64,000 nucleotides of DNA from Acidisarcina sp. (lineage in GTDB: Bacteria; Acidobacteriota; Terriglobia; Terriglobales; Acidobacteriaceae): the NCBI GenBank assembly GCA_035539175.1, contig DATLIY010000003.1, forward strand, positions 186,001 through 250,000. Direction: 5' to 3'. Position 1 is the first letter of the stretch. Each line of letters starts with the position of its first letter. This document shows positions 11,317-21,259 of the stretch, one piece after another. The position numbers were made by a program, and so were the translations under genes. The notes under the pieces were generated by a model. It was not told the origin of the DNA. It saw nothing but the letters and a program-made list of their open reading frames with translations, and did no database searches.

Positions 11317-13182
11317 ATGATAGAAGATTTGGGATGTTCAGTGTCGACTCGCAGATCGTTTCTCCGCAGCTCAATCCTTGCAGCTAGTGGTCTCCACCTT
11401 CGCTTTGCATTTGGCGAAGCGAAGGTGGAGGCTGCAGTCCTGGACTTGAAGGTCTATGACTCTGCGACGAAGCAAAGCATCCCTTCTTCAATTGCCATCT
11501 GGGACTCTACCGGAAAACTCATTACAAAAGATCCGGGCTATAAGGGCGGCATTCGATCTTCTGGCGAGTTTCATTCGGTGATCACCGAAGGCAGGATCAA
11601 AGTCGTGATTACGCGAGGGTGCGACTATATAGCCGAAGTGCGGGAACTACTCCTCGAACCCGGTAAGACAACGAAGTGCACTGTTAACTTGACGCGGGTA
11701 TCACCTCTACGTAAAGAAGGTTGGGTCTGTGGGGATAGCCATGTCCACATGAAACATGGTCAAGGTCCGATTCAGGCGGGCTTCCCGTTCATGGCACTTA
11801 CAGCACGAGCGGAAGCATTGGACTACATGTCTGTGGCTCAGCAGTGGAATGTCGAGACCGTCACCTCTACACTTCTTTCCCAGGAATGCGCATCCGTCTC
11901 GACAAGTGACTGTGTGCTGCAATGGAATATGGAAGCCCCTAAAAACTATTGGAAGGGAGATGTATCCCATTGCATGGGGCACGGCTGGACGCTAGCAGTT
12001 CGAGATATAGCTGCAAATGGAGCGGATCCGATTTCGGAATTATTTGCGATGAGTGCGGGAGACTATCAGAAAGAAAAAGTACCGACTCCGAACTTTGAAA
12101 GTCATGCCTTCATTCATGCTACTGGCGGAATCGTCTCTTATACTCATCCCTGCCGTATCTGGAGAGGAGAGTGGGGAGGGAAGAATGGGTTTCCTATACA
12201 GCAGGAGAAGTTCGTCTCCAACATGGCTCAGGAGCTTCCGTTCGATACGATAGCCGGACCCACCTATGACTCGATTGATATCCTGATGCAAACCAAGGAG
12301 CAGCTAGTAAACCAGCTTGCAGAGCAGCTCTGGTTCATGCTCCTGAATCGGGGATACAGAATTCCAGCTACGGCTTCTACGGATGCCGCATTTGACACTC
12401 CTGGCGGAGCGACTCCGGGCGTTGTACGCGTCTACACGCGGATTGATGGGGATGTGACCTTAGAAAAAGTGGCCGTGGCGATGAAGGGCGGACGTAACTT
12501 CGTTACCAGTGGTCCACTGCTGACGTTTACGGTAGACGGGCACGGGATCGGCGATGTCATCCCGGTTCTCAATCGTATGAGGCGCACCGCCCACGTACAA
12601 GCCTGGGCCAGCGGTGTACCGAACGAGTATCTGACGAAGATCGAGGTTATTCGAAACGGGCAGGTCTACAAGACCTTTGAACTTGCTGAAAAGCCGAAGA
12701 CTCACACATTGGACTTCGATGTTGAAGAGGATAAGACATCCTGGTACATCGTGAAGTGTTATGGCTCGCAGAGAAACCAGTATGCCATTTCTAACCCGAT
12801 TTACTTTGAGGCTCCTGGATTTCAAACTCCCCCGCCTGCAAGAGCCAATGTGGAACTACAAGTGGTCGCTTCCGGTTCTGGCAAGCCGCTCGATGGCAGC
12901 TACGAGATACTCAACATGATTGGGAGGGAATCCACGTTGTTAAGCAAGGGTGAATTCACAGGCGGCCGCGTAACTTTCAATGCGCCTGCTACTGCGCGTA
13001 TTCGTGTCCGGGCATCAGGATATGAGTCCGCGATGAAAAGCATCTTCATCGATACGCCAGCCTTGCTCAATTCAACCTTGGAGATGCAACTTGCAGAACT
13101 CCTAGATTGGGCTACCTTTGAAAAGGTCAAGAAGGCGCTCGATCAAATCCAACTCAAATGTGAGATGCAACCTTCGGCATAA
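11317..13182 (+). CDS. CehA/McbA-like PHP-type metallohydrolase, Tat-exported
   Basis: 621 residues. RRSFLRSS near residue 12 followed by a hydrophobic helix is a twin-arginine signal. A beta-rich N-terminal domain leads to a PHP-type metal site: GDSHVHMKHGQG near residues 139-150, SYTHPCRIW, and TASTDAAFDTPGGATPG. A C-terminal region reads like an Ig-type fold (TKIEVIRNGQVYKTFEL). This arrangement is that of CehA/McbA-family proteins, named for carbaryl hydrolases but mostly of unknown substrate. AAGGAAGAAAG precedes the ATG. The PafA-like phosphatase starts 20 bases after its stop, so the two are probably co-transcribed and act in the same periplasmic pathway. Confidence 0.85.
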   Translation: MIEDLGCSVSTRRSFLRSSILAASGLHLRFAFGEAKVEAAVLDLKVYDSATKQSIPSSIAIWDSTGKLITKDPGYKGGIRSSGEFHSVITEGRIKVVITRGCDYIAEVRELLLEPGKTTKCTVNLTRVSPLRKEGWVCGDSHVHMKHGQGPIQAGFPFMALTARAEALDYMSVAQQWNVETVTSTLLSQECASVSTSDCVLQWNMEAPKNYWKGDVSHCMGHGWTLAVRDIAANGADPISELFAMSAGDYQKEKVPTPNFESHAFIHATGGIVSYTHPCRIWRGEWGGKNGFPIQQEKFVSNMAQELPFDTIAGPTYDSIDILMQTKEQLVNQLAEQLWFMLLNRGYRIPATASTDAAFDTPGGATPGVVRVYTRIDGDVTLEKVAVAMKGGRNFVTSGPLLTFTVDGHGIGDVIPVLNRMRRTAHVQAWASGVPNEYLTKIEVIRNGQVYKTFELAEKPKTHTLDFDVEEDKTSWYIVKCYGSQRNQYAISNPIYFEAPGFQTPPPARANVELQVVASGSGKPLDGSYEILNMIGRESTLLSKGEFTGGRVTFNAPATARIRVRASGYESAMKSIFIDTPALLNSTLEMQLAELLDWATFEKVKKALDQIQLKCEMQPSA

Positions 13183-13202: not shown

Positions 13203-14786
13203 ATGATGAACATAAAGCAAACTATTTTTGCAGGAATCACCGTTTTTGTTGTTATGGCAGGGTATGCCGCTGCAGCGCCTGCGAATACTCCGGACAGACC
13301 GCGGTTGATTTTGGCGATCGTGGTCGATCAGTTTCGGGAGGATTACACTACTCGCTTTCGTAAGGAGTACACGGGGGGCATCGCGGAATTGCTCGAAAAG
13401 GGCGCGGTCTTCCCCGATGCTCATCAAGACCATTTCCCGACGGTGACGGCTGTGGGTCATGCCACTCTGCTTACTGGCTCGGTTCCAGCCACGAGCGGCA
13501 TCATTGGAAATGAATGGTACGATCGGCAGTCCGGGAAAGTAATCTCTTCGGTTGAAGATGCAGAGACTACCTTGACCGGTGATTCTTCGGCAAAGGGTTC
13601 GTCTCCCCATAATCTTGTTGTCAGCACGGTTGGAGATGAGCTCAAGATTGTGGGAGGTGCCAAGTCGAAGGTCATTGGGATCTCGATGAAAGATAGGGCC
13701 GCCATCTTAATGGTTGGCCGGATGGCGGATGCCGCGTATTGGTTCGACGCAAATATCGGAGGGTTTGTCAGCAGCTCCTGGTATGAGAGCACGCTCCCTG
13801 TGTGGATGGTGGACTTCAACAAAAAGCGGCTTGCTGAACAATATCTGGGAAAGATATGGAAGTCCTCATTGAATCCCAATAGTCCTGCTTTCCTGGAGCT
13901 GCCGTCTTCGCCAGGAAAAGCCTTCTATGGTGCCTTGGCAGGGACTCCCTATGCCAATAACGTTCTCGAAGAACTTGCAGAGACCGCGCTGCACAGCGAA
14001 AATCTCGGTCATCATGCTGCGCCCGATGTGCTGGCCGTGAGCTTTTCGGCTAACGATGCTCTCGGGCATCGCGTAGGCCCTGATGCTCCCGAGGTCGAAG
14101 AGATGTGCGTCCAGACGGACCGCACAATCGCCAGGTTGATTCATGCGGCAGAGGTGCAAGTGGGCGGTCCACAAAATCTTCTGGTCATCTTTACAGCCGA
14201 TCACGGCGTCGCCCCTGTCCCTGAAGTCAATGCACAACGCAAGCTCCCAGGAACACGCATACACAGCACTGCGTTGCTGCAACCGATCCAGGCAAGACTC
14301 CGCGAAAGATTCGGTGAAGGCGAGTGGATACTCTCAGATCAAGGGGCGAGCCTTTATCTTAACGATGAGCTTATTGCCAAAAAAGGACTTTCCAAATCGG
14401 ACGTTGAAGATACAGTAGCTACAACAGCAGAAAGTCTCCCCGGCGTTGCCCGTGTTTATACCAGGCACCAGTTTGAGCAGCACGTGGCAATGGGATCCAC
14501 CATCGACGAATATATGGCGCGAGGATTTTTCTCAGAGCGATCCGGCGATGTCTCCATTCTGCTGGACCCGTACGCAACACATGCCGGCGCAGGTACGAGT
14601 CACGGTACACCGTACGATTACGATTCTCATGTTCCGCTCATCTTCTATGGATGGAGGATCAAGCCGGGCTTCTATACGTCTCGCACGGGCATTAGCGACG
14701 TTGCGCCGACATTAGCGTTCCTTTTGAACGTTGAAACACCGTCAGGAAGCGTTGGACACATACTTTCGCAGATGATCGGCAAGTAA
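13203..14786 (+). CDS. PafA-like alkaline phosphatase, periplasmic
   Basis: 527 residues with a signal peptide ending near residue 25 (GYAAAAP). The alkaline phosphatase superfamily core is clear: AIVVDQFRED supplies a metal aspartate, FPTVTAVGH (residues 78-86) carries the nucleophilic threonine, SMKDRAAIL matches the Lys/Arg phosphate clamp of PafA-type monoesterases, and TADHGVAPVP plus SHGTPYDYDSHVPLIFYG supply further metal ligands. The Lys/Arg pair argues for a PafA/SPAP-type phosphomonoesterase and against a plain nucleotide pyrophosphatase. Two ATG codons in tandem (13203, 13206) are possible starts. Last gene before a 160-base gap leading to the sigma fusion. Confidence 0.88.
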   Translation: MMNIKQTIFAGITVFVVMAGYAAAAPANTPDRPRLILAIVVDQFREDYTTRFRKEYTGGIAELLEKGAVFPDAHQDHFPTVTAVGHATLLTGSVPATSGIIGNEWYDRQSGKVISSVEDAETTLTGDSSAKGSSPHNLVVSTVGDELKIVGGAKSKVIGISMKDRAAILMVGRMADAAYWFDANIGGFVSSSWYESTLPVWMVDFNKKRLAEQYLGKIWKSSLNPNSPAFLELPSSPGKAFYGALAGTPYANNVLEELAETALHSENLGHHAAPDVLAVSFSANDALGHRVGPDAPEVEEMCVQTDRTIARLIHAAEVQVGGPQNLLVIFTADHGVAPVPEVNAQRKLPGTRIHSTALLQPIQARLRERFGEGEWILSDQGASLYLNDELIAKKGLSKSDVEDTVATTAESLPGVARVYTRHQFEQHVAMGSTIDEYMARGFFSERSGDVSILLDPYATHAGAGTSHGTPYDYDSHVPLIFYGWRIKPGFYTSRTGISDVAPTLAFLLNVETPSGSVGHILSQMIGK

Positions 14787-14947: not shown

Positions 14948-17908
14948 ATGCAGCAGGCTCAGTTTCAAGAAGAAGAGCTCACCCACGAAAGGGTTTTCGA
15001 GCGGAATTATTCGTGGTTGATGCAATGGGCATTGAGACTGACTGAGGGTAAGCATTGCGAAGCTGAGGATCTGGTTCACGATCTCTTTATTCAATTAATC
15101 CGACTTCGTCCCAGCCTGGATTCAAACCCGGATCGTGTTCGCGGTTATCTGTACACGATGTTGCGCAACATGCGTCTCTCCCAATTGCGCCGTGCACAAC
15201 GTAGCCCTATCTGCGAACTATCAGTCATCGACTATGATTCGGTGGAACAGGGGCTGCGTTCTATTCCCGGCAGGCCTCTCTCTGCGATATGGGCGGAGCT
15301 GATACGGATTTGCGACTATGCGTGCGAGCGGAAGAAGACCTCTCGCTCGGCAAGCGTGCTCATCCTGCGCTTTTTTCTGGCCTACTTCCCGAGTGAAATT
15401 GCTCGTATTTTGAAAACAACACGGATTCCGGTCGACAAGTACCTTCATACCGCCCGGAAAGAGGCGCGTCTCAGTGTCTCGCGACCCAACGCATTACGGA
15501 TTTTTGGGGAGAGACGCACGTCTCGCGAAACACCACCCGTGCCGGAAGAGTCGCAGGAATGCTTTCTGGCGCTGCGCCATCAGGTCTTTCGATCCTGCGA
15601 GGGAAAATGCCTCTCGAAGGAGGCACTGCAGGACATTTATACATCCGGTTCCTCGAAATCCCTCAGCACATCCGAGCTCGCACATCTGGTAAGTTGTCCG
15701 CAATGCCTGGATACATTGAACTGGATTCTAGGGATTCGACTCTTGGCTGATCGATGCCCCTCAAAGACCCTTGGCCGCGAGGATGGCTCTTCTCCCAAAG
15801 ATGGCGGCGGATCGGGAAGTGGCGGCGGAGCCTCTTCCAATAACGTGGAGCGCGAAGCCTTGCGCAGGCTCGAAGAAGAGAATGAACACCGCCCGAATTA
15901 CCTGCAGGTCGCGGTCAATGGAGAGATTAAGTCCTCTCAAAAGATCACCTCGGAACTGAGTGAATTTCACGTCAGAGTGGGCAGAAACCGGACGCTGGAG
16001 TTTCTTGAAATCTTCAGTGAGCAGAGTATCCGCCTCCTGTACCTGCCGATCAGTTCTTCGTCCAGTCCAACGAACTCGGGAGAGCGCGCAAGCATTCAAT
16101 TGAGCGACGGACGCACGCTTGAAGTGTCGGTTTCGATCTCGGGAGATAGCCCCACGATATGCGTGAGATATCACGATCCTCTATTTACGGAGTCGGAGAC
16201 ACTGGCGGAAGCGGCTCTATTCGAGCGCCTGCGAGAAGATGCCGGAGCCGAGCCAACACGTGGCGGATCCTGGACTCTCGGAAGAACTGTTGCGGCATTC
16301 TGGGCTCGCTGCACTGACGTTTGGCCGATAGGCGCAACGGCTACGGTCGCCGTATCGGTGGTTATAGTTGCAGGCGTGGTGCTTCTGCGTGCTTCGAAAC
16401 CGTGGCAGTCACCTGGTGAACTCCTTCGGCGCGCCGATCAACGAGCAACCGCGGAGATAACTCCAAATGATCTGGTGCGGAGAACTATGCGCATCGAGCA
16501 ACTCGGAGATTCAGGTCAGACGGTGCGTGAAGATTCGGTAGAAGAGTGGGCTTCAGGAGATGCACAGAACCGAGCCAGACGGCTTTACGCCCATGATGGC
16601 ACGCTTGTCGCCGAAGAGATTACACGCGGAAACCGCACGAAGTTTTTTGACAAGTTGAACCGGGGCCATGATGCCCAGTTGAACCGCGCAGACCTCCAGG
16701 TGCAGGATGTCTGGCAGATCACGCCCTCTGCGAAACAATTCCAGGACCTCATTGCGCCGGATCAACCTTCTGCAATCCAGCAGGCGAGCGATCGCTATTC
16801 GATCACCTATAGGCATCCAGCGAACGATGGCGGTCGACTGGTTGAGGCAACCCTTGTGTTGCGACGGAACGATCTTCATCCGGTAGAGGAGGATCTTGTC
16901 CTGCGTTCGGATGGAGCGGTACACCATGTCCGTCTTATCGAGTCGAGTTATGAGCGGATCGCGCGTTCCAGCGTGCAGAAAGATGTTTTCGCACCGGATA
17001 AGGAGCTATCTGAAGTAGTATCCCAAACCTTCTCTCGTGAGCAGTCTCTCGATGCAACCGGGCGGATGGACGATGTAAGCGCCGAACGCATCATTCACAC
17101 CTTGTATCTTCTCAGCCTGGTTGGAGCGGACATGAATGGCGAGACAAGCGTTCAAGCTACCGCGCACGGTACGCTCCGGATCACGGGAACGATTGCTTCG
17201 GCAGCACGCCGGGACGAGATTCTCCGCGTCCTTAATCCTTTGCGTGCGGAGAGTGGAATTGAGATTCACCTGCTGACACCCGATCAGCTTCATAGCAGCA
17301 GTAAAGGAAAGCAGAGCAGGCAGGCTGTCGAACTTGTCGAGCCAACAGAAGGTACGATTCCCGTTGACCACCAGTTGCGTCAGCTTCTTATGGAGCGTGG
17401 CACGCCGCCGGATCAAATGGAAAGTGCGATGCAGCACTTTTCGCGACAGGTATTGGCAAATGCTGACGAGGCCCAGCAGCACGCATGGGCTCTGGATCGG
17501 ATCGCCAGGCGCTTCTCGCCCGCAGACCTAATCAGCCTCTCTCCACAGGCACGTTTGGAATGGGTGCAGATCATCGATTTACACAGTTCCGCTCTTCTGC
17601 TCTGTGTTCAGGCGACTCGTGTGGAACTCGCCTATTTCTCGCCGCCACACCAGATAGATGAGGCTGGAGTTGAACCGATTACAAATATCAAAGAGCTTAC
17701 GAACGCTGCCGATCAACTACTAAATCTGTCTCGATCAAACGACCGTATCCTTGCTTCCGCGTTCACGCTATCGGCCTCTCCTGGAGAGAGCGACGTACTC
17801 AAGAAGTCGAGCTTTTGGCTGTCGCTCGAGAGACTCGAAAGCCTCGCGCGAGAAACTGCCACTGCAGAAAGAACGTTGAAGGCGGAGGCCGACCGGGCAG
17901 CTCGGTGA
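14948..17908 (+). CDS. Membrane-anchored ECF sigma factor fused to a zinc anti-sigma domain
   Basis: 986 residues combining parts that are normally separate proteins. Residues about 15-83 are sigma region 2 (CEAEDLVHDLFIQLI, then RGYLYTMLRNMRLSQLRR). Residues about 130-172 are sigma region 4 (SEIARILKTTRIPVDKYL). Residues 240-262 match the zinc anti-sigma helix, with H246-x3-C250-x2-C253 (HLVSCPQC). A Gly/Ser-rich linker at 279-297 leads to a cytoplasmic stretch, one strong membrane helix at 461-481, and about 500 periplasmic residues; part of that (about 710-765) resembles a BON-like fold. A glycosylated or lipidated form is not indicated. The TonB receptor starts 48 bases downstream. I infer a self-contained transmembrane regulator released by proteolysis. 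Domain calls are by eye. Confidence 0.85.
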   Translation: MQQAQFQEEELTHERVFERNYSWLMQWALRLTEGKHCEAEDLVHDLFIQLIRLRPSLDSNPDRVRGYLYTMLRNMRLSQLRRAQRSPICELSVIDYDSVEQGLRSIPGRPLSAIWAELIRICDYACERKKTSRSASVLILRFFLAYFPSEIARILKTTRIPVDKYLHTARKEARLSVSRPNALRIFGERRTSRETPPVPEESQECFLALRHQVFRSCEGKCLSKEALQDIYTSGSSKSLSTSELAHLVSCPQCLDTLNWILGIRLLADRCPSKTLGREDGSSPKDGGGSGSGGGASSNNVEREALRRLEEENEHRPNYLQVAVNGEIKSSQKITSELSEFHVRVGRNRTLEFLEIFSEQSIRLLYLPISSSSSPTNSGERASIQLSDGRTLEVSVSISGDSPTICVRYHDPLFTESETLAEAALFERLREDAGAEPTRGGSWTLGRTVAAFWARCTDVWPIGATATVAVSVVIVAGVVLLRASKPWQSPGELLRRADQRATAEITPNDLVRRTMRIEQLGDSGQTVREDSVEEWASGDAQNRARRLYAHDGTLVAEEITRGNRTKFFDKLNRGHDAQLNRADLQVQDVWQITPSAKQFQDLIAPDQPSAIQQASDRYSITYRHPANDGGRLVEATLVLRRNDLHPVEEDLVLRSDGAVHHVRLIESSYERIARSSVQKDVFAPDKELSEVVSQTFSREQSLDATGRMDDVSAERIIHTLYLLSLVGADMNGETSVQATAHGTLRITGTIASAARRDEILRVLNPLRAESGIEIHLLTPDQLHSSSKGKQSRQAVELVEPTEGTIPVDHQLRQLLMERGTPPDQMESAMQHFSRQVLANADEAQQHAWALDRIARRFSPADLISLSPQARLEWVQIIDLHSSALLLCVQATRVELAYFSPPHQIDEAGVEPITNIKELTNAADQLLNLSRSNDRILASAFTLSASPGESDVLKKSSFWLSLERLESLARETATAERTLKAEADRAAR

Positions 17909-17956: not shown

Positions 17957-20900
17957 GTGACGATAAAGAGATCGGCGCCAGCGTTAGCTTTCCAAAAAGG
18001 ACAGCGGATTTTTATTGTCTTCTGGGTGCTCTTTCTCTCGTGTCGACTTCACGCCCAGAACGATACCGCCGACTTGAGTGGAACGGTTGTGGACCAGAGC
18101 AATGCCATCGTCACGCGTGCCCGTGTTGATCTAACGAACAGCGATACCGAACTCAAGCGCAGCGTTTTTTCAAACGATACAGGAACATTCAGCATTCCGG
18201 CTCTTCCACCAGGAAGATATCTGCTGCGTGTTGAACATGACGGATACCAGATCACGCAATCACGGCAATTTTCTTTAAGCTCCGGGGACAAACGTACGAT
18301 CCTTGTCGAGCTTAAAATCGGACATGCTACGACTTCGATAACGGTGACCGCGAATAATGAGCAATTGACGAATGATAGCGGCGCCATTGCGAATCTAGCG
18401 ACGGAACGGGAGATCTCTGGTCTCCCCTCAGTAAGCCGCCAATTCGGGGATCAACGGACACAGGCATTCGCTCTTAATAATCCAGGTACGACATGGAGCC
18501 GAGGGGGATGGATCTCGGTCGATGGAGGCCGCTATCTGGACAATACGCCCGCAGTAGATGGAATGATCGTGGCATCACAGATAGATGGCGGAGGTGGAAC
18601 GGTTGTCCAGTCCGGGATGGAAGGAACACAGGAAGTAAGTGTCGAACTAGCGGGTAGTCCCGCCGAGTTCCCACGCCCTGCTGAGTACAGCACTGTCACA
18701 AAGGCAGGCGGTAACACAATGCATGGCAGTATCTTCTACATGCACAATGACAGTTTCCTGAATGGAAGAGATTACTTCGCCAATAGCGTTCCATCTCGCA
18801 TCTACAACGATGGAGCTGTTAGCCTCGGGGGACCGATCAGGAAGGGCTCTACCTTCTTTTTTGTGGATTGGGAGCACTCGCGTGAGAGCACGGACATTAT
18901 CGTCAACGGCAATGTTCCTTTGGCGACATGGCGCTCTGGTAATTTTCGCGATGCAACGCGAACTCTGACGAATCCCTACACCGGTCAAGCAATTCCCAAC
19001 CAACAAATTCCCACTGATTTGATTAGTTCTGTTTCCAATAAAATCCAGAATTTATACTATCCCCAACCCAACTACGGCATGCCTGATCTTGTGTCAGGGA
19101 ATTACCGGGCTCTGTTAAAGCCGGGTTTGAGTGGGCAGACGAATTTCGATAGCTTTGACACACGACTGGACCGTATCTTCAGCGCCAGCGACCACGTTTA
19201 TGCAAGCTTTAACTTCATCAACTTGCCGCGTACGTCATGGCAACCCGGCAGCCTTCCTCCCTATGGGCTACGCAGACAATACCGGCTGGGCCGCAGCGGG
19301 CAGATCTCCTGGACCCATGTGCCATCACCAGCATTGCTGAATGAGGCTCGCATCGGATTTACCCGGCAAAAAAACAGCATCGCTTCAGAATATGCAGGTA
19401 ATACCATCCTCAATGCAGCTGGCATTGAGGGTGTGGCTACTATCGGGATTCCGACCGTCCCGATCATAAGCATTACCGGAATTACTACTGCGAGTCAGGT
19501 TCCTTACTTTCGCTTTACTGACACCAGTTTTCAATGGACTGACAACCTGACCTGGACGAAGGGGTCGCATTCCTACCGCTTTGGAGTTACAGCCGTTCGA
19601 GATCAGAACTCCGGCTTCAATATTCGAGGAAATGTTTATGGCTCCTATGCCTTTACCGGAGCCTTTACTGGAGTTCCCTACGCGGATTTTCTCTTAGGTC
19701 TTCCTCAAACAACATCTCTCACTGTTCCTACTCCAGAGTCCCATCGTTTTGGTACGTGGTGGAGCGCATATGCGCAGGATCAGTTCAAGGTTCTGCCAGC
19801 CCTGACACTGAGCTACGGTCTGCGGTGGGAAGCGCAGGGGCCGTATTACGAAAAGAACGGCTTGCTCGCAAGTTTTGATCCTGGCAATGGAAGCATCGTG
19901 ATTCCTGATAGTGGTCTGTCTAGAATCAATCCGCTGTTTCCGAAGAATCTTCCGATTGAAACCGCCTCAGGGGCCGGTTACCCAAAGCGTTCACTTCTCG
20001 ATTTTCACAAAGGATATGTCTATCCGCGTTTCGGATTTGCCTACCAACTATCGCGAGCGCATGGCATCGTCCTGCGTGGTGGCTACGGTATCTACGGTAA
20101 TAGCATCTATGGAGCGCTGGATCTCTCCGGTGGACCTTTCTCCAGCAGCGAGTCTTTTACCAATAGCATCACGAACGGCAAGCCTCTGCTGACCCTCGCA
20201 CAACCCTTTCCAGCAACCGCAAAGGTTCCGACGCAAAATATGGTCGGAGTCAACCCACGCTTGCGCGTTCCTTATCTTCAGCAATGGAATCTCACCACAG
20301 ACTGGGCACTCCAGACATTTAGCCTGAGCATTTCCTACATTGGCAGTAAAGCTACAAACCTGATCTACAGCCGTAATCTCAACCAGCCACACGCAAGCAC
20401 CAAACCGTTTAGTTCCTCTAGCTATACCTATCCTCTCTACAACTCTGTGATTTGGGCAGATAACGGCGGCACAGAGAACTACAACTCACTACAGTTGGTG
20501 GTTCGAAAAACAATGGATCATGGACTGTCCTTCAAAGGTGGCTGGACCTGGGCTAAGGATCTGACAGATACCCAGGATCAGATCAGTTATAGAGGGCAAT
20601 TGATTCAGGATGCATATAACCGTGCCGCGGAATATGGAAACTCGACCAACGTCAGCAGGCATCGCGCATTTCTGAACACAATCTACAACCTGCCATTCGG
20701 AGATACAAAAAAGGATAGATACTTTCAGCACGCGAAGGGGTCAATCTTTGGAGGCTGGACGGTTGCGTTGAACCTCTTGGCGGAAACGGGGCCGTATTAC
20801 ACTCCGCTTTTCTCTGGTTTCGATGTTTCGAATACCAACAACACCACCAACCTGCGCCCCGACATAGTTCCGGGCGTAAGTAGCCGGCCACCGGCAGGTC

Positions 20901-21259
20901 GCAGGCTCGCGCAGTGGTTTAACCCAGCCGCTTTTAAAATACCCGGATGTCCAGACGCACTTCCTCTATGTTCGGCCCCGGCCGATGTGGGGAGATTTGG
21001 AAACGCTGGCGTAAACACACTGCAAGCTCCAAATTATGTTGAGCTCGATTCCAACCTGACCAAAGAGATGCCGCTTCGCGACCGCGTGCGGCTTCAATTG
21101 AGTATCTCTGTGCAGAACCTACTCAATCATCCGAACTTCTCGCCGCCGTCGGACGTGAACATTAGCTCGCCCGCCGCAGGCAGCATCACCTCTACTTACG
21201 CTGAACTGAATGGCTCGGCAGCACGGCAGATTGGCCTTATGGTGCGGTTCACGTTTTGA
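17957..21259 (+). CDS. TonB-dependent receptor, Oar-like (paralogue of the one at 7932)
   Basis: 1100 residues, initiated at GTG with only a weak GAGAAA upstream. The signal peptide ends at RLHAQ near residue 34; a carboxypeptidase-regulatory-like domain follows (LSGTVVDQSNAIVTRARVD, then ALPPGRYLLRVEHDGY), then plug and barrel, ending in LMVRFTF. Domain order and many barrel blocks match the receptor at 7932, for example GGPFSSSESFTN against GGPFSGSESFTN and FNPAAFKIPGCPD against LNPSAFKIPGCPD, so they arose by duplication. It follows the sigma/anti-sigma fusion by 48 bases and is probably co-transcribed with it. Substrate unknown. Confidence 0.92.
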   Translation: MTIKRSAPALAFQKGQRIFIVFWVLFLSCRLHAQNDTADLSGTVVDQSNAIVTRARVDLTNSDTELKRSVFSNDTGTFSIPALPPGRYLLRVEHDGYQITQSRQFSLSSGDKRTILVELKIGHATTSITVTANNEQLTNDSGAIANLATEREISGLPSVSRQFGDQRTQAFALNNPGTTWSRGGWISVDGGRYLDNTPAVDGMIVASQIDGGGGTVVQSGMEGTQEVSVELAGSPAEFPRPAEYSTVTKAGGNTMHGSIFYMHNDSFLNGRDYFANSVPSRIYNDGAVSLGGPIRKGSTFFFVDWEHSRESTDIIVNGNVPLATWRSGNFRDATRTLTNPYTGQAIPNQQIPTDLISSVSNKIQNLYYPQPNYGMPDLVSGNYRALLKPGLSGQTNFDSFDTRLDRIFSASDHVYASFNFINLPRTSWQPGSLPPYGLRRQYRLGRSGQISWTHVPSPALLNEARIGFTRQKNSIASEYAGNTILNAAGIEGVATIGIPTVPIISITGITTASQVPYFRFTDTSFQWTDNLTWTKGSHSYRFGVTAVRDQNSGFNIRGNVYGSYAFTGAFTGVPYADFLLGLPQTTSLTVPTPESHRFGTWWSAYAQDQFKVLPALTLSYGLRWEAQGPYYEKNGLLASFDPGNGSIVIPDSGLSRINPLFPKNLPIETASGAGYPKRSLLDFHKGYVYPRFGFAYQLSRAHGIVLRGGYGIYGNSIYGALDLSGGPFSSSESFTNSITNGKPLLTLAQPFPATAKVPTQNMVGVNPRLRVPYLQQWNLTTDWALQTFSLSISYIGSKATNLIYSRNLNQPHASTKPFSSSSYTYPLYNSVIWADNGGTENYNSLQLVVRKTMDHGLSFKGGWTWAKDLTDTQDQISYRGQLIQDAYNRAAEYGNSTNVSRHRAFLNTIYNLPFGDTKKDRYFQHAKGSIFGGWTVALNLLAETGPYYTPLFSGFDVSNTNNTTNLRPDIVPGVSSRPPAGRRLAQWFNPAAFKIPGCPDALPLCSAPADVGRFGNAGVNTLQAPNYVELDSNLTKEMPLRDRVRLQLSISVQNLLNHPNFSPPSDVNISSPAAGSITSTYAELNGSAARQIGLMVRFTF

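Follow-up and report, generated by a model that had tools for sequence, protein, structure and literature searches.

A fused ECF sigma/anti-sigma membrane protein with a predicted LolA-type periplasmic fold, conserved in Acidobacteriota next to an outer-membrane barrel gene

The DNA analysed here (the window) is a stretch of 64,000 nucleotides from Acidisarcina sp., a soil bacterium in which a sigma factor, an inhibitor, a membrane anchor and an outer sensor are joined in one long protein. The gene at positions 14948-17908 of the window probably encodes a self-inhibited, membrane-tethered extracytoplasmic function (ECF) sigma factor that regulated proteolysis sets free and that is linked to the outer-membrane protein (OMP) encoded next to it. 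Evidence for this proposal includes the following: the architecture is kept in a set of 42 unbroken fused genes, the zinc motif of class I anti-sigma factors is present in them, and an OMP gene follows nearly every fused gene.

Results

One reading frame from sigma factor to periplasmic part

The open reading frame (ORF) at 14948-17908 is a single frame of 986 residues, with ATG at 14948 and stop at 17908. Its parts, with the evidence for each, are as follows.

14948..17908, + strand: protein of 986 amino acids (aa) that joins an ECF sigma factor, a zinc anti-sigma domain, a transmembrane helix and a LolA-like sensor (frame, conservation, structure model)
14984..15202, + strand: sigma region 2, residues 13-85 (Pfam Sigma70_r2, 7e-13; model helices)
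15278..15481, + strand: sigma region 4, residues ~111-178 (TIGR02937 over 14-173; Sigma70_r4_2 in 15 of 42 aligned fused proteins)
15551..15730, + strand: zinc anti-sigma domain, formed by helices at 202-261, with C221, H246, C250 and C253 as candidate ligands (conservation; hhalign against split anti-sigma zinc domains)
15755..15829, + strand: flexible Gly/Ser-rich linker, 270-294 (partly low pLDDT)
15830..15886, + strand: helix 295-313, which may correspond to anti-sigma helix 4 (model; helix order compared with passages of PMC7406223)
15887..16180, + strand: cytoplasmic eight-strand beta domain, 314-411 (profiles, hhalign, structure model)
16328..16390, + strand: single transmembrane helix, 461-481 (hydropathy 461-479; model helix 463-481)
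16403..17032, + strand: predicted periplasmic LolA/RseB-type half-barrel, 486-695 (models, Foldseek, VIA-align)
17081..17299, + strand: tentative BON-like alpha-beta-beta-alpha-beta unit, 712-784 (secondary structure; weak BON-type Pfam matches in one or two of 42 relatives)
17366..17902, + strand: C-terminal helical bundle, 807-985 (structure models)

An earlier reading made from the letters and ORFs of this DNA (the sequence-only reading) had proposed that sigma and anti-sigma factor are joined in one transmembrane polypeptide, and this is borne out by the 986-residue frame and its conservation. Its single membrane helix at 461-481 agrees with both hydropathy and model, its estimate of about 500 periplasmic residues is close to the ~505 counted C-terminal of the helix, and its Gly/Ser linker was confirmed at about 282-295, with a length and Gly/Ser content that differ among relatives of the window protein. 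It had also named sigma regions 2 and 4. Residues 17-85 matched Sigma70_r2 (E 7e-13, 48.6 bits against a Pfam cut-off of 24), and the NCBIfam profile TIGR02937 (sigma70-ECF) spanned residues 14-173 (51.8 bits, cut-off 42.9). Region 4 gave no Pfam match in the window protein taken singly, and Sigma70_r4_2 was matched at E up to 1 by 15 of the 42 aligned fused proteins. With the ECF profile above its cut-off, these matches indicate that residues ~1-180 are an ECF sigma factor with regions 2 and 4 only.

The fused form is conserved

A second full-length copy was found in the window's own genome (G000). Among 61 genomes searched first, four held ten full-length members between them: six in G035, two in G000 and single ones in G021 and G030. 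In the family, at least 81 of 398 genomes had a match at 1e-10; the number is a minimum, since two candidates per genome were scored. Fused-looking matches were dissected by profile searches for each part (sigma, zinc, cytoplasmic, periplasmic), which gave 46 fused genes at first and 43 in 29 genomes, window gene included, after loci L110, L091 and L108 had been left out. L110 (873 aa) was dropped as a fused gene, as its sigma part goes out of frame before region 4 and its anti-sigma part starts afresh, like a frameshifted split pair; L091 is broken into pieces of 475, 354 and 99 aa, and L108 runs into a contig end. The frame of L079 changes ~100 residues before its end, so that L079 is counted among the 43 but not among the 42 unbroken genes. 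These 42 genes, again including the window gene, encode 837-1027 aa, come from 28 genomes of the family and keep the order of the parts, and the 41 other proteins share 21-30% identity with the window protein in the alignment. L109, one of the unbroken genes, lacks the cytoplasmic beta domain.

The search of acidobacterial genomes for the same architecture, which the sequence-only reading had suggested, was thus successful. That reading had named separate homologous genes and a sequencing frameshift in the window as the result that would speak against it. Split homologues do exist (see below), and the fused form is itself conserved; because 42 fused genes are unbroken, a frameshift artefact was ruled out as the origin of the fused gene. 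That the fusion arose by chance, or is a functionless product of two genes in decay, also seems to us extremely improbable: the broken L091, the frame change in L079 and the split-like L110 speak for it, but the 42 unbroken frames keep the zinc motif at identities of 21-30%.

Across the phylum, 20 of 396 genomes searched matched at 1e-15, and fused genes were present in two families besides that of the window (G631 and G695). A scan with two short conserved patterns, covering 84,980 species by one genome each, confirmed 29 loci, every one under an acidobacterial name, and more distant forms may occur elsewhere; several of the 29 are the same records as genomes searched above. They include Paracidobacterium acidisoli, Silvibacterium bohemicum and a Granulicella, and further loci lie in bins named Edaphobacter, Pyrinomonadaceae, Luteitalea, Chloracidobacterium, Blastocatellia and others. 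The fused form was seen in 25 of these 29 loci (four of the 25 are broken, frame-shifted or cut by a contig end). We also observed that the six fused genes of G035 are followed by an OMP gene in five cases, the sixth being at a contig end. In two Pyrinomonadaceae bins, L200:2586-3620 and L201:1508-2347 encode sigma plus zinc proteins of 344 and 279 aa with no match to the beta-domain or periplasmic profiles, which may be either soluble self-inhibited sigma factors or truncated genes.

A split counterpart and the zinc domain

In the split version of the system, an ECF gene is followed by a gene for a zinc anti-sigma factor of about 580-670 residues, of which only the C-terminal half is common to the fused proteins. 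The periplasmic halves of the two forms are homologous (hhalign probability 100, E 3.9e-72). For 24 of the 28 split genes that are not visibly broken, the preceding ECF gene was found by the sigma profile, and the two genes often overlap. H14, H39, C43 and C46 are invariant in 27 of 27 split anti-sigma factors, and zf-HC2 was matched by 22 of the 27 at E up to 1 (best 1.4e-6).

In the fused proteins, C221, H246, C250 and C253 are invariant in ten of ten aligned sequences, and the H-x3-C-x2-C motif that the sequence-only reading had placed at 246-253 is found exactly there (H246-x3-C250-x2-C253). The motif is present in 43 of 43 fused proteins compared with 2 of 323 other ORFs of at least 250 aa in the same loci. 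A Cys or His lies 22-28 residues N-terminal of the motif His in 41 of the 43, and L097 and L107 have an upstream Cys at shorter spacing. By sequence, the class I zinc anti-sigma signature (Hx3Cx2C plus an upstream ligand) is present in the fused proteins. The window protein had no direct Pfam zinc-finger match. Against the split zinc anti-sigma factors, the zinc region of the fused proteins gave an in-register alignment (hhalign probability 42.6, P 2.6e-4), whereas controls (seven scrambled or reversed, five from other segments) reached a probability of at most 8.2. Only when profiles were compared with those of the split factors was the zinc domain recognised: region 240-262, expected by the sequence-only reading to match anti-sigma profiles, matched no Pfam zinc profile directly and aligned in register with zinc regions that mostly do match zf-HC2.

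The zinc plus beta profile gave six matches to solved structures; the third, 3hug_B, covered the zinc motif but was not significant (E 0.5). The matched chain is a membrane protein, and 3hug is presumably a sigma/anti-sigma complex. Class I anti-sigma factors consist, according to passages of PMC7406223, of a three-helix bundle, a flexible linker and then a helix 4 that binds sigma region 2; from their order, helices 202-261, the Gly/Ser linker and helix 295-313 could correspond to these elements.

The cytoplasmic beta domain has no counterpart in the split anti-sigma factors of the family (hhalign probability 0.3; no profile match). At L155 and L204 the zinc plus beta part belongs to a protein of its own, 458 aa long, with a single membrane stretch and a different periplasmic part; after its gene comes a 195-aa ECF gene, likewise separate, which the fused sigma profile matched at 1e-36 to 1e-38. 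Thus, residues 200-411 occur elsewhere as the cytoplasmic part of a stand-alone anti-sigma-like protein. L155 appears to be the same contig as L203. At L203:5980-10968 and L204:5980-10940, we observed the zinc plus beta anti-sigma-like gene before the ECF gene and then a gene for a ~990-aa protein, the order opposite to that of the split OMP-linked loci.

Periplasmic sensors are mixed between the two platforms

In a tree of 68 sigma domains, the fused (43) and split (25) sequences fell on opposite sides of one branch with support of 100. In contrast, fused and split forms were mixed in a tree of 70 periplasmic halves (built without L110, L091, L108, L133 and L134), with seven changes between forms, at least three of them forced by well supported branches. 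Forcing the fused periplasmic halves together cost 323.5 log-likelihood units (p-AU 1e-74; 65 rows, the flagged rows L098, L132, L127, L129 and L090 being also left out). Since the sigma domains form two groups and the periplasmic halves do not, the simplest account of the sequences is that periplasmic sensors have been exchanged between two sigma/anti-sigma platforms.

The periplasmic part is predicted to begin with a LolA-type half-barrel

The entire protein was modelled with AlphaFold2 (42 sequences, mean pLDDT 81.2, pTM 0.51). In the model, the helices of sigma are followed by short ones at 202-261 and by a loose linker that leads to helix 295-313; eight strands at 318-409 form the next domain, and C-terminal of the membrane helix lie a half-barrel, a unit of alpha-beta-beta-alpha-beta order and a bundle of helices. 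Modelling of the periplasmic part alone (70 sequences, pLDDT 87.6) gave the same elements. The best Foldseek matches were LolA proteins, at 4.5e-5 for the whole chain and 2.8e-6 for the periplasmic part, and LolA entries fill the match lists. VIA-align Z values were 14.3 and 14.4 to LolA 4mxt, 11.3 and 11.1 to MucB and 11.0 to RseB; matches to RseB and MucB (Z 10.7-11.3) had root-mean-square deviations of 3.9-5.1 Å over 155-173 residues. Residues 486-695 are thus predicted to form a LolA-type half-barrel, the fold of RseB and MucB. As to an RseB-type second domain, in nearly all VIA-align rows the match stops near residue 695. The periplasmic profile searched against solved structures gave 13 weak matches (best E 0.006), mostly in the helical part and none to LolA. 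The BON-like label for residues 712-784 is tentative. The periplasmic domain that the sequence-only reading had called novel is therefore not wholly so, as its first 210 residues have a LolA/RseB fold in the models.

This predicted fold raises the possibility of RseB-like sensing in cis, in which the LolA-type cavity would bind a lipid, a mislocalised lipoprotein or lipopolysaccharide and so unlock a cleavage site, the OMP being merely one target gene. According to passages of PMC7400510, MucB binds lipid A in its half-barrel and then releases MucA. On the other side, LolA fits better than RseB or MucB, and six of ten aligned fused proteins (e.g. L036) are gapped at the half-barrel strands of the window protein, so that lipid binding may not be general. 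We hold this form of sensing to be possible but less probable than not.

An OMP gene adjoins nearly all fused genes

An OMP gene of the OMP_b-brl_4 type was found directly downstream, on the same strand, in 41 of 44 fused loci (the original 46 minus L110 and L091). In the window this gene is:

17957..21259, + strand: OMP_b-brl_4 outer-membrane barrel with an N-terminal CarboxypepD_reg domain, candidate partner (48 bp after the sigma gene)

Of the other three loci, L079 has an OMP gene 330 bp further on and L039 and L108 run off the contig. As the window's own genome has about 50 such genes in 3.9 Mb (62 OMP_b-brl_4 matches before pieces were merged), this adjacency is far above chance. An OMP gene also lies directly downstream of 17 of 28 split genes (BLAST) and slightly further on at L126, and L134 ends with its contig.

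In addition, the OMP tracks the sensor within the fused class. Across 37 fused loci, OMP distance followed periplasmic distance when sigma distance was allowed for (partial rank r 0.47, 0 of 2000 permutations), and did not follow sigma distance when the periplasmic part was allowed for (0.00, 895 of 2000). For all 51 loci, a comparison without the nine split loci that have a ~1310-aa neighbour, the values were 0.24 (0 of 2000) and 0.10 (89 of 2000); the short sigma domain makes its distances noisier. Co-evolution of OMP and sensor, as judged from these distances, holds for the fused class and is limited to it. Exchange of a whole sensor-plus-OMP cassette between platforms was also considered and is not supported by the fused-split pairs.

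Adjacency in 41 of 44 loci and tracking of the sensor within them would also be expected of cell-surface signalling of the FecI-FecR-FecA type, in which import through the OMP is the signal, the OMP touches the periplasmic part and the LolA-like fold is merely a scaffold. Several scanned OMPs had Plug or TonB barrel matches, as that scheme would have it. However, an STN signalling domain was found in none of the ten OMPs scanned (six fused partners, three split partners and the window's upstream OMP), no FecR family was found in ten fused proteins or among the families listed (25 of 32) for the 42, and nine of the 28 split loci with the same sensor family adjoin another gene. We therefore regard this scheme as doubtful.

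The sequence-only reading had taken two TonB receptors and two exported hydrolases as the likely regulon. Conserved adjacency links the downstream OMP to the regulator, and for the upstream OMP (7932) and the two hydrolases we found nothing beyond position and strand. The gene at window positions 13203-14786, upstream of the sigma gene, encodes a type I phosphodiesterase with a signal-like start. Positions 11317-13182 encode a protein of 621 aa that matched no Pfam family significantly and begins, judged by eye, with a signal of twin-arginine type; its segment VCGDSHVHMKHGQG may resemble PHP/CehA-type metallohydrolases. At L031 and L032, four genes after the OMP gene encode AhpC-TSA/redoxin proteins, three of them with tetratricopeptide repeats, and at L033 and L034 an S9 peptidase gene stands in their place; cargo beyond the OMP thus varies by locus. 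At L033, L084, L085, L086, L089 and L090 the word GAGGGTAGAT or a near-variant lies 32-37 bp before the start codon, and it is possibly a promoter element of one subgroup.

Discussion

Proposed mechanism

We propose that the zinc helical domain at 202-261, probably with helix 295-313, clasps the sigma factor in cis as a class I anti-sigma domain would, and that the cytoplasmic beta domain and the one membrane helix connect it to a periplasmic sensor beginning with the predicted LolA/RseB fold. The change sensed in the periplasm might be a lipid or lipoprotein in the LolA-like cavity, the state of the adjoining outer-membrane barrel, or both. It would open the chain to cleavage by a site-1 protease, followed by an RseP-type site-2 protease, which would release the cytoplasmic part. 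The released part would have to shed or loosen its anti-sigma domain before the sigma factor joins RNA polymerase and transcribes at least the downstream OMP gene. Proteolytic release is suggested because there is a precedent in IutY, a fused ECF sigma/anti-sigma protein that stays inactive while membrane-bound until Prc and RseP release it (passages of PMC5411451), because the LolA-type half-barrel of MucB binds lipid A and then frees MucA for cleavage (passages of PMC7400510), and because the genome has an RseP-type protein (453 aa, with HEFGH) and three S41 matches. One puzzle is that the inhibitor would stay attached to sigma after release, unlike in two-protein systems.

An alternative without proteolysis is a tethered conformational switch in which the signal passes through membrane helix and beta domain and the zinc domain lets go of a still-attached sigma, or polymerase is recruited at the membrane. 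Because the zinc domain is covalently joined to sigma, ordinary degradation of the anti-sigma part would endanger the sigma factor itself, and the extra conserved beta domain, for which the family's split anti-sigma factors show no counterpart, could serve as a relay. On the other hand, a membrane-bound transcription factor has to reach its promoters, and IutY, the only fused case studied by experiment according to passages of PMC8999054, is activated by Prc and RseP cleavage. Such a switch therefore seems to us improbable.

Several results weigh against release by proteolysis of a self-inhibited, OMP-linked sigma factor. The zf-HC2 profile was matched by none of ten fused proteins at E up to 1 and is absent among the families listed (25 of 32) for the 42, and the whole-chain pTM is only 0.51, so that no claim is made for packing of the zinc domain on sigma. 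No MucB/RseB family and no FecR family was found in the window protein, in ten fused proteins or among those listed families. The presence of RseP and S41 genes is weak evidence, since both are common in control genomes. Nine split genes (L112, L113, L115, L116, L118 and L120-L123) have next to them, in place of an OMP gene, a gene for a ~1310-aa protein with an export-like start and, in the three of nine scanned, weak propeller-repeat matches; an adjacent OMP is therefore not required by this type of sensor, and the ~1310-aa protein appears to be a different partner for the same sensor family. In the 14 split loci with an OMP, the OMP followed neither periplasm (0.12, 503 of 2000) nor sigma (-0.22, 1752 of 2000), and in fused-split pairs the periplasmic and OMP distances were not positively correlated (-0.10). 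Furthermore, no shared promoter motif emerged when the stretches upstream of 57 fused genes were compared with 469 others: the best two-box words stood upstream of only 6 of 57, enrichment of single words was weak (e.g. SGTAGA, in 16 of the 57 and 40 of the 469, with no correction for the large number of words), and a scan for sigma-70 promoters came out below chance.

We nevertheless consider proteolytic release of a self-inhibited sigma factor the probable course. A bolder version, which we think rather unlikely to hold in full, is that a whole sigma-E style pathway, with sigma factor, zinc anti-sigma factor and RseB-like lipid sensor, has been condensed into one chain, in which sigma leaves the membrane still covalently bound to its inhibitor and only partial proteolysis, or a loosening in place, sets it free, and that this platform takes cartridge-like sensors which, in the fused class, are paired with particular barrels.

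In this protein Acidobacteriota have a conserved single-protein route from periplasm to promoter. Because the same sensor family occurs on fused and split platforms, the effect of covalent sigma/anti-sigma fusion is open to direct comparison. With a predicted LolA-type fold and an anti-sigma domain in one chain, the question of the cavity's ligand becomes testable with one protein, and the system may show how one barrel among about 50 is chosen for expression.

Comparison with known systems

IutY has a FecR-like periplasmic part. Passages of PMC5411451 and PMC8999054 describe this Pseudomonas putida protein, a member of ECF243, as a single-pass chain with a cytoplasmic ECF sigma factor and a periplasmic anti-sigma part, which works with the outer-membrane receptor IutA, much as a barrel adjoins 41 of 44 fused loci here. 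However, IutY has 374 aa and a periplasmic part of the cell-surface-signalling kind, whereas the window protein has 986 aa with a zinc domain, a beta domain and a LolA-like sensor, and the OMPs scanned here lack STN. Passages of PMC8999054 list ECF48, ECF52 and ECF53 as expected fused cases with zinc domains; in these groups from Actinobacteria (e.g. SCO4117), a zinc finger and membrane helices are fused C-terminally and proteolytic activation is proposed. The extensions there reach about 400 residues, compared with about 800 after sigma and a predicted LolA-type fold here, and SCO4117 has proline-rich and carbohydrate-binding parts, unlike the window protein. For ECF270, a table in the same source gives a member from Acidobacteria bacterium SCN 69-37 and, among the cases of proteolysis, one from Anaeromyxobacter; common to ECF270 and the fused form are thus acidobacterial membership and, in part, extensions of the proteolysis type.

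The RpoE-RseA-RseB and AlgU-MucA-MucB systems offer an analogy of working, as they too combine an ECF sigma factor, a membrane anti-sigma factor and a periplasmic regulator of LolA fold. They do so in three proteins as against one chain, no RseB family was matched here, and LolA is the closer fold. No description of the fused architecture in Acidobacteriota was found in searches of an open-licence library, and the 2021 ECF classification may contain one. Given IutY and ECF48/52/53, fused membrane sigma/anti-sigma proteins are not new in kind; within the searches made, what appears to be new is the combination of a zinc domain, a cytoplasmic beta domain, a LolA-type sensor in cis, an OMP neighbour and exchange of sensors between fused and split platforms.

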